From: a virus
Direction: 5' to 3' (one strand)
Virus record (IMG/VR): IMGVR_UViG_3300025057_000058
Location: 1 to 20,201 of that record
DNA: 20,201 bases
The notes under the pieces were generated by a model. That model had not been told where the DNA came from, searched no databases, and saw only the letters and a program-made list of their open reading frames with translations. Made by a program: the position numbers and the translations under genes. Positions within the stretch are counted from its first letter, which is position 1. The number at the start of each line of letters is the position of its first letter. This document shows positions 5,185 to 19,605 of this stretch, in pieces.

Positions 5185-5431
5185 AAATCCAAGTAAAACT
5201 GCTAAATATTACAGGGAAAACCGTGAAGCTTACTTAAAAAAACTAGCTAAACAATCTAAAGAAAACGGTAAACCCTCTAATAAAGAATATCGTCGTAAAC
5301 TTGCAATGAAACGACGTGAAGCTGGTTTGATGGGTAAAGGTGGTAAAGATATGTGTCACCAATCAAACGGTAAAATTAAACCTTGCAATGCTAAAAAGAA
5401 CCGAGCTAAAGGGGGCGGTCAAAAACGATGA
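5165..5431 (+). CDS. Small, highly basic protein, 88 aa
   Basis: An excellent Shine-Dalgarno (AAAGGAGG, 5153-5160) precedes ATG 5165 by 4 nt, which fixes this start. The gene overlaps the end of the terS candidate by 20 nt. The product is rich in Lys, Arg and Asn (VKNPSKTAKYYRENREAYLK, later GKGGKDMCHQSNGKIKP) and ends in KKNRAKGGGQKR. Similar Lys-rich small proteins recur in cyanophages, to my recollection, without an assigned function. Charge and location beside packaging genes suggest nucleic-acid or capsid association. Its strong SD is unusual in this window and implies high translation. Confidence 0.75.
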   Translation: MAPRRVKNPSKTAKYYRENREAYLKKLAKQSKENGKPSNKEYRRKLAMKRREAGLMGKGGKDMCHQSNGKIKPCNAKKNRAKGGGQKR

Positions 5432-5754
5432 CCCCACTCTTCCCTACGCCTGATCATTATTTACAAAATTTAATTACCATGACAAGTCCCGAAGCTAAAA
5501 GGCTCTGGAGAAGAGCCATTAAAGAGCACTTCAATTGTCACTGTGTATATTGTGGAGAACATTATGAATTACATGAACTTACTTTGGACCACGTTCACCC
5601 TCGGTGTTCTGGTGGAGAAGATCTTACAAGTAACCTCGTACCATCTTGCGTACGCTGTAATCAGGCAAAGGGAAGCAACAACTGGTTAGTTTGGATGCGT
5701 AAAACTTTTGGACTAACCGATAGAGAACATCTTATTTTATCCCATATTAAATAA
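5428..5754 (+). CDS. HNH endonuclease
   Basis: ATG 5428 starts in an ATGA overlap with the previous stop; the product is 108 residues. A clear HNH core is visible: CVYCGEHYELHELTLDHVHP, then RCSGGEDLTSNLVPSCVRCN and QAKGS. The two Cys-x-x-Cys pairs bind structural zinc, and the DHVHP and N-L-V-P-x-C segments carry the metal-binding catalytic residues. The gene could be a free-standing homing-type nuclease or a packaging-associated HNH protein like those beside terminase genes in other tailed phages. Its location between the terS candidate and terL favours the second, but this is inference. Confidence 0.88.
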   Translation: MTPLFPTPDHYLQNLITMTSPEAKRLWRRAIKEHFNCHCVYCGEHYELHELTLDHVHPRCSGGEDLTSNLVPSCVRCNQAKGSNNWLVWMRKTFGLTDREHLILSHIK

Positions 5755-17755: not shown

Positions 17756-17837
17756 GCTTATTCTAATTGATGGTCTTGTTTTAATTACAAATATTTTTAT
17801 TTGTGCGGGGGTTGTTCGTCATTGGAATGATGTATGA
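17745..17837 (+). CDS. Micro-ORF encoding a 30-aa single-span membrane peptide
   Basis: ATG 17745 overlaps the previous gene by 11 nt, and its TGA overlaps the exonuclease start as ATGA. The product begins MVAKLILIDGLVLITNIFIC and ends AGVVRHWNDV, with a central hydrophobic stretch long enough to span a membrane. Without it there is a 78-nt gap between otherwise overlapping genes. Holin-like or host-membrane-targeting roles are possible but unproven. An AT-rich hairpin (17787-17804) lies inside the ORF. Confidence 0.55.
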   Translation: MVAKLILIDGLVLITNIFICAGVVRHWNDV

Positions 17838-18370
17838 ATTTAGTTTTTGATTTAGAAACTAACGGTTTACTCAATGATGTTACCCAAATCCACTGTTTGG
17901 CAATTCATGATCTTGATGAAGGTAAGACGTATGTCTTCAACGATCAATCGTTTAGCAGAGTTGGTGACAAACCAGCGGAGGCACCAATCGTTCAAGGCAT
18001 TGAAATGCTGGAAGATGCGGACACCATTATTGGTCACAACATTATTGGCTATGATTGTCCTGTTATCAGGAAGTTTTACCCTTGGTTTGACCGATCTTAT
18101 GGTGTGGTGGACACTTTGCTGCTTAGCCGCCTTTATCATGCTAACATACTTGAGGTAGATCAAAAGAGGAAGTGGGATCAAATGCCCCTTCAACTATATG
18201 GTCGTCACTCTCTTGAAGCTTATGGCTACCGTCTCAAGTGCTACAAAGGCTCGTTTGGTAAGACTACCGACTGGTCTGATTGGTCACAAGAGATGCAAGA
18301 CTACATGGTTCAAGATGTTCAAGTTACTGTCAAATTATGGCATCACTTCCACCGTTACCTGACTGGGTAA
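17834..18370 (+). CDS. DNA polymerase 3'-5' exonuclease (proofreading) part, separate gene
   Basis: The product is 178 residues from ATG 17834, the size of the T7 gp5 exonuclease domain alone. All DnaQ-like motifs are present: Exo I FDLETNG (D6, E8), Exo II GHNIIGYD (D74) and Exo III YMVQD (Y157, D161). It ends at TAA 18368-18370 and the polymerase continues in another frame, so proofreading and synthesis are encoded on separate polypeptides unless a frameshift joins them. The two would be expected to assemble as a T7-like polymerase. Confidence 0.92.
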   Translation: MNLVFDLETNGLLNDVTQIHCLAIHDLDEGKTYVFNDQSFSRVGDKPAEAPIVQGIEMLEDADTIIGHNIIGYDCPVIRKFYPWFDRSYGVVDTLLLSRLYHANILEVDQKRKWDQMPLQLYGRHSLEAYGYRLKCYKGSFGKTTDWSDWSQEMQDYMVQDVQVTVKLWHHFHRYLTG

Positions 18371-19605
18371 TTTTAGAACACCAAGTCGCTCAACTACTTC
18401 AACAGCAAGAGGAACATGGATGGGCATTTAATGAAGCTCTTGCATGGGAGCTTGCATCGTCTCTCCAAAAAGAATTGGAAGAGACTTCTAAAATATTACG
18501 AGACAGGCATCCTTTCGTCAAAAGCGAGGAAAAAACTCCTAAAAGAACTAACAGTACCCTTGGATACGTCGAAGGATGTAAGTTCACACGAATTAAAGAG
18601 TTAAACCCTACTTCACGCGATCACATTGCATGGATCCTTACTCAATTTTACAAATGGAAACCTACCCAGATGACGGCTACTGGGAAGCCTATGGTGGACG
18701 AAACGATCCTGACCGAGATTGGTACAGAGATTTCGATGATGTTCTCCAAATGCTTGACCCTGACGAAATCACTTGGGATGCTTACGGCGGGTGTAAATGC
18801 CTGGTTGAAGCTAGAGAAGAAAGGTCGCATTCACCATCACTGTAGTGTTGCAACCATTACTCATCGTTGCGCCCATCGTAAACCAAACCTTGCCCAAGTC
18901 CCTTCTGATGAAAGATTCCGACAACTGTTCATTCCTTCAAAAGGTCTTACAATGGTTGGTGCTGACTTATCTGGAATCGAACTTAGGATGCTCGCTCACT
19001 ACCTAGCAAGGTATGATGAAGGACGTTATGCCAAACTTTTACTTGAAGATGACATTCACCAGGTAAATGCTGATGCGATTGGAATCACTCGTAAACAAGT
19101 TAAAACTGTCACGTACGCTTTCCTATACGGAGCTGGCGACCAAAAGATCGGGTTATCATTTGACGAACATCTTACTTTGCAAAGAGCTAAGTCAAAGGGC
19201 AAAGAAATCCGGGATGCTTACGTCAAAGCTATCCCAGGTCTTGGGAAGCTCCTTGACGCAGTTAAAGAAGCTGCTCAAAGGGGTTGGGTCAAATCTATAG
19301 ATGGTCGAAAGATCACTGTAAACAGTCCACACAAAGCTCTAAACATGCTGCTACAATCATCGGCAGGCGTCATCGCTAAGCGGTGGATGGTCCTAGTTGA
19401 TGAAACTAACAGGCTTTGTGGTATAAACAGCCACCAGCTTGCTTTTGTCCACGACGAACTTCAATTTGAATGCCACCCTGATCATGTCAGCGACTTACGT
19501 ACATCCTTGGTACACGGAGCTACAGCGGCTGGAGAATATTACAATCTCCGAATCCGCATCGATGCTGAAGCCACCCAAGGCTCAAACTGGGCAGAAACTC
19601 ACTAA
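18337..19605 (+). CDS. DNA polymerase (family A), polymerase domain, separate gene
   Basis: ATG 18337 (MASLPPLPDW) is chosen because the homologous region begins there; an upstream TTG (18280) is possible. The product is 422 residues and overlaps the exonuclease gene by 34 nt in the -1 phase. Motif A is GADLSGIELRMLAHY (D210). Motif B is RKQVKTVTYAFLYGAG (K256, Y260, Y264). Motif C is FVHDELQFE (H372, D373, E374). The FNPSSRDH-like marker NPTSRDH is present near residue 90. The segment where T7 gp5 has its long thioredoxin-binding loop is short here. Family A replication polymerase is certain; how it gains processivity is unknown. Confidence 0.93.
   Translation: MASLPPLPDWVILEHQVAQLLQQQEEHGWAFNEALAWELASSLQKELEETSKILRDRHPFVKSEEKTPKRTNSTLGYVEGCKFTRIKELNPTSRDHIAWILTQFYKWKPTQMTATGKPMVDETILTEIGTEISMMFSKCLTLTKSLGMLTAGVNAWLKLEKKGRIHHHCSVATITHRCAHRKPNLAQVPSDERFRQLFIPSKGLTMVGADLSGIELRMLAHYLARYDEGRYAKLLLEDDIHQVNADAIGITRKQVKTVTYAFLYGAGDQKIGLSFDEHLTLQRAKSKGKEIRDAYVKAIPGLGKLLDAVKEAAQRGWVKSIDGRKITVNSPHKALNMLLQSSAGVIAKRWMVLVDETNRLCGINSHQLAFVHDELQFECHPDHVSDLRTSLVHGATAAGEYYNLRIRIDAEATQGSNWAETH

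Follow-up and report, generated by a model that had tools for sequence, protein, structure and literature searches.

Whether a T7-type DNA polymerase gene that is broken into two open reading frames yields one protein through a ribosomal frameshift or two separate proteins is a question raised by a virus record, IMGVR_UViG_3300025057_000058, and by marine cyanophages related to it. For marine podoviruses, the gene for DNA polymerase serves as a standard marker. The GenBank record of P-SSP7 describes the pair PSSP7_017A/017B as a possible “split variant of DNA polymerase, or a programmed ...” event, and that of S-TIP37 carries a similar note on its pair 17A/17B (“split variant or frameshift”); the choice was never settled. 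In a 2012 paper, proteomics of P-SSP7 confirmed what was putatively either a frameshift or a split variant and did not choose between them (PMC3350473); some work takes the break as a frameshift mutation (PMC6370689). The first-pass annotation of the present record, which noted that split polymerases exist in some other phages, left the novelty of this one uncertain; because related cyanophages already carry such an annotation, the split is not new as such and its novelty is low. What is new here is comparative evidence on the question posed in the P-SSP7 and S-TIP37 records.

This evidence indicates, from conservation among relatives, that the split is real and old and would yield two proteins, not a single frameshifted one. 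We propose, with a probability of roughly 0.8, that the T7-type replicative polymerase is made as two polypeptides, an exonuclease of 178 aa and a polymerase of 422 aa, the latter probably by termination coupling, and that the two chains would assemble. Such evidence of an old, selected pair of genes bears on annotation, and the model phages P-SSP7 and S-TIP37 would offer a concrete case of a family A replicase whose proofreading domain works from a chain of its own.

The two genes and their relatives

The window analyzed is the whole virus record of 20,201 bases. Its gene order is T7-like, comprising a terminase-like gene, thyX, RNA polymerase, SSB, endonuclease, primase/helicase, exo, pol, and a 5'-3' exonuclease, where the terminase and SSB labels derive from position and from the annotation of relatives. 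Within the phage collection, its nearest relatives are cyanophages of Synechococcus and Prochlorococcus. A free-standing HNH endonuclease gene at 5428–5754 differs from most window genes in having a strong Shine-Dalgarno-like leader. Scans for promoters and terminators across the exo-pol region returned sites no more numerous than in shuffled sequences.

The gene for the 3'-5' exonuclease subunit, corresponding to the exonuclease domain of T7 gp5, occupies positions 17,834–18,370 of the plus strand and ends with a TAA codon at 18,368–18,370 (RNase_H_2; phrog_17 and phrog_403; T7 gp5, E 7e-15). It is followed on the same strand by the gene for a family A DNA polymerase subunit without an exonuclease domain at 18,337–19,605 (DNA_pol_A, 3e-41; T7 gp5, 6e-53; phrog_15971, a PHROGs family that spans the polymerase part alone). 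The polymerase gene lies in the −1 phase relative to exo, and the two frames are both read across an overlap of 34 nt at 18,337–18,370. These coordinates agree with the first-pass annotation, in which the two ORFs, their lengths, phase, and overlap had been given. A mechanical ORF list begins pol at an upstream TTG, yielding 441 aa, because the pol reading frame stays open as far back as 18,280; judged by conservation among relatives, the pol start is the ATG at 18,337–18,339.

Alignment with T7 gp5 bore out the earlier reading that all catalytic residues are intact and that the break falls at the domain boundary. Exonuclease residues D6/E8, D74, and Y157/D161 match the T7 exonuclease sites, and polymerase motifs A, B, and C are present as GADLSGIELR, TRKQVKTVTYAFLYG, and VHDE. 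The seam lies between the domains, with exo residue 168 corresponding to T7 residue 181 and pol residue 11 to T7 residue 208, in the chain numbering used by the PDB hits. The 422-aa chain is predicted to fold by itself: an AlphaFold model of pol alone has a pLDDT of 89.9, and its top structural match is T7 DNA polymerase. The window pair thus contains the catalytic motifs of both domains and the polymerase fold of a family A, T7 gp5-like enzyme. At the thioredoxin-binding insert, pol is shorter than T7 gp5 by about 40 aa (pol residues 44–73 versus T7 241–310), and therefore the processivity factor used by T7 probably plays no part here. In S-TIP28, a thioredoxin gene is annotated two genes upstream of the fused polymerase (contig L100, 1958–2260). 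When bacterial and archaeal genomes were scanned for the exonuclease, no relatives turned up.

To carry out the search of related phages suggested in the first-pass annotation, IMG/VR and phage records were scanned. The split in this phase was present at 191 loci, and a single fused ORF at 12 (11 distinct contigs). Of 7 remaining loci, five were retrievals of the same HNH-carrying virus and two had additional frame breaks. The fused relatives include P60, S-TIP28, SS120-1, S-CBP42, a pelagiphage, LUZ100, and the metagenomic lineages L076 and L199. The split relatives reach down to about 50% identity and include a contig (L003) that is 99% identical to the window and carries the same break. Removal of near-copies at 97% over 590 nt left 123 distinct junctions, in every one of which pol is in the −1 phase. 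The overlap measures 40 nt in 103 junctions, 52 nt in 10, 34 nt in 7 (one of which is the window), 43 nt in 2, and 37 nt in 1. Extra frame breaks in exo or pol were seen in the records of P-GSP1, S-RIP1, and NATL2A-133 and in one metagenomic contig (L092, L088, L096, and L058); these are probably sequencing or assembly errors.

On the tree, the window falls within a starred set of 25 rows, each of which is split or HNH-split. The fused lineages L076 and L199 are placed inside the split group by the joint exo and pol tree, and yet the same data do not reject a grouping of every split member in one clade (AU p 0.447). In the tree of exo alone, the split members form one clade, while in that of pol alone a single clade is borderline (p 0.0495). 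The simplest account of these sequences would be one origin of the split from a fused ancestor with possible later re-fusion. The one-ORF polymerases of L076 (1904–3760) and L199 (2426–4252), which may be nested in the split clade, could represent either such a re-fusion or the nearest fused sister.

Start of the polymerase gene

The pol frame has a start codon at one and the same position in all 123 junctions (ATG in 111, TTG in 12). This codon overlaps the exo codon for Leu168, at which only CTA (81), TTA (31), and CTT (11) occur, while the remaining leucine columns of exo make use of all or nearly all six codons. Of 24 codon changes inferred at Leu168 from the tree, none leads to CTC, CTG, or TTG, the codons that would destroy the start; at 11 other leucine columns, 43% of changes do so (chance P about 1.6e-6). 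In 58 of the 123 junctions, the pol frame is closed no more than 6 nt upstream of the start, and hence the upstream pol frame is unused in those sequences. Conservation of the start would be needless if pol were reached by frameshifting, and separate initiation fares well in this comparison. Synonymous variation in exo is 0.99 of expectation upstream of the overlap, where the lowest 9-codon stretch reaches 0.79, and falls to 0.57 within it. Such a drop is expected whether pol is made separately or by frameshifting; it therefore supports use of the pol frame in the overlap without choosing between the two.

The arrangement suggests the following history and mechanism. An indel in the interdomain linker of a fused ancestor would have shifted exo and pol out of a common frame, and a start codon overlapping the Leu168 codon, ATG or in some cases TTG, would have become the pol start. 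Ribosomes ending exo would then re-initiate 34 nt back on the pol ATG through termination-dependent coupling, and the exonuclease and polymerase chains would assemble into one proofreading polymerase, an expectation drawn from homology to T7 gp5, in which the two domains form one enzyme. Precedent for coupling exists in the coat-lysis overlap of phages fr and MS2, where termination of the upstream gene drives initiation of the downstream one (PMC12548453); the overlap in fr is 34 nt (PMC10666635). The same layout, a conserved start within tens of nucleotides upstream of the stop, was found in 123 of 123 junctions with overlaps of 34–52 nt. Counting against coupling here, an experimental study reports that it mostly needs shorter overlaps of a few nucleotides (PMC10666635). 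No Shine-Dalgarno sequence precedes the pol start of the window, and its relatives generally lack one too, and so for the initiation step we infer coupling. Provided that two proteins are made, the gene layout somewhat favors coupling to exo termination as the route by which pol is produced.

A less likely variant, compatible with two proteins, is that ribosomes use the pol start independently of exo termination, with an A-rich leader and protein S1. The AAA at positions −5 to −3 relative to the start is conserved at 95–98%, and the codon for exo Lys167 shows only 0.19 of the expected synonymous variation, which would suit a start region. Many other window genes also have no Shine-Dalgarno sequence, and no strong RNA structure masking the pol start was found. 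However, the exo stop always follows the start at the distance given by the 34–52 nt overlap, as coupling would need, and two glutamine codons farther upstream are restricted to the same extent as the lysine codon, so that the A-rich signal is not unique. Together these two Gln codons and one Lys codon, located at 18,311–18,334 of the window, retain about 0.2 of the expected synonymous variation among relatives.

Frameshift signals and the seam

Against the two-polypeptide reading stands a programmed −1 ribosomal frameshift within the overlap, which would generate a fused exo-pol protein of about 600 aa and leave free exonuclease as a by-product. The constant −1 phase, the short overlap, the position of the break just before the exo stop, and the short linkers that join the domains in fused relatives too are all in keeping with such an event, which is also listed as an option in the P-SSP7 and S-TIP37 GenBank notes. 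The zone of the window that permits a −1 shift from exo into the pol frame extends over 18,280–18,370 of the plus strand. In this zone, an X-XXY-YYZ heptamer in the exo frame was found in none of the 123 sequences, the window included, compared with a chance expectation of about 9% from codon shuffling; the earlier remark that the overlap holds no canonical slippery heptamer therefore extends to all the junctions. Single-tRNA (4-nt) −1 slip codons are absent from the 29 codons examined in the window. Among relatives, the commonest position for such codons is occupied in 87 of 123 sequences, 19 sequences have none at all, and no position is common to all 123. Stimulatory 3' RNA structure, sought downstream in 60 sequences by pseudoknot-free folding, gave mean z values of 0.16 to 0.69, with no excess over controls or shuffles. 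The pair thus shows neither the slippery heptamer nor the 3' structure of a canonical programmed −1 frameshift gene.

A further argument comes from a relative in which another gene lies between exo and pol. This virus, assembled in two metagenomes (L011 and L012), has 61% identity to the window in exo and 70% in pol, and carries a 123-aa ORF (L011, 2152–2523) assigned as an HNH endonuclease by PHROGs (E 1e-21); a Pfam search of this ORF gave no match. The HNH ORF begins on an ATG at the usual place of the pol start, overlapping the end of exo by 43 nt, and its own end overlaps a TTG-started pol ORF by 44 nt. As exo and pol are here in one frame and separated by stops, a single frameshift cannot join them. 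No Rfam match indicative of an intron was obtained at the seam in L011 or the window, and in the window the overlap of exo and pol leaves no room for an intron or intein insert. Two other contigs each have a relative of this HNH gene just ahead of a fused pol gene (L106, 2360–2749; L107, 2459–2878), which places this HNH family at gene boundaries. As read from its gene layout, the seam in L011 is such a boundary.

Given the missing slip site and structure, the needlessly conserved start codon, and the interrupted relative, a programmed frameshift as the main route to pol is improbable, although a low-level frameshift product alongside the two proteins is possible. The extra frame breaks in the P-GSP1, S-RIP1, and NATL2A-133 records would speak for a sequencing indel or a decaying gene, but this reading is ruled out to a negligible residue: the same break, phase, and pair of ORFs recur in 123 distinct junctions drawn from numerous assemblies, and the catalytic residues are all retained. 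The preference for two proteins over decay, an indel, or a frameshift that had been voiced from the window sequence is thereby strengthened: comparison of the junctions documents a conserved phase, a conserved start, the lack of a slip site, and a sister lineage with a foreign gene in between. It is about an even bet that an entire clade of marine T7-like phages works in this way, with a two-subunit family A polymerase whose proofreading exonuclease is a protein of its own, ribosomes that terminate on exo and move back about 34–52 nt to make pol, and a seam that, now a true gene boundary, can take in homing endonuclease genes.

Comparison with known systems

The closest counterpart of the window pair is the split gene 5 of the cyanopodoviruses P-SSP7 and S-TIP37, with which it shares the two genes, their order, two overlapping ORFs with pol in the −1 phase, and a start at the codon overlapping exo Leu168. 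The overlap in those phages is 40 nt rather than 34 nt, and identity to the window is about 58–64% in exo and 61–68% in pol. The polymerases of P60, S-TIP28, SS120-1, S-CBP42, pelagiphage HTVC168P, and T7 have homologous domains in the same order and at the same place in the replication module but, unlike the window, consist of a single ORF across the seam. In MEP401-type phages of OM43, a phage family A polymerase is likewise found in two ORFs, but the break interrupts the polymerase domain itself, and a small ORF, possibly an intron, separates the two parts (PMC10580990). The coat-lysis pair of fr and MS2 is unrelated and would work alike: its downstream start also lies tens of nucleotides before the upstream stop, in another frame and with an overlap of similar size, the coupling in the window being predicted from gene layout.
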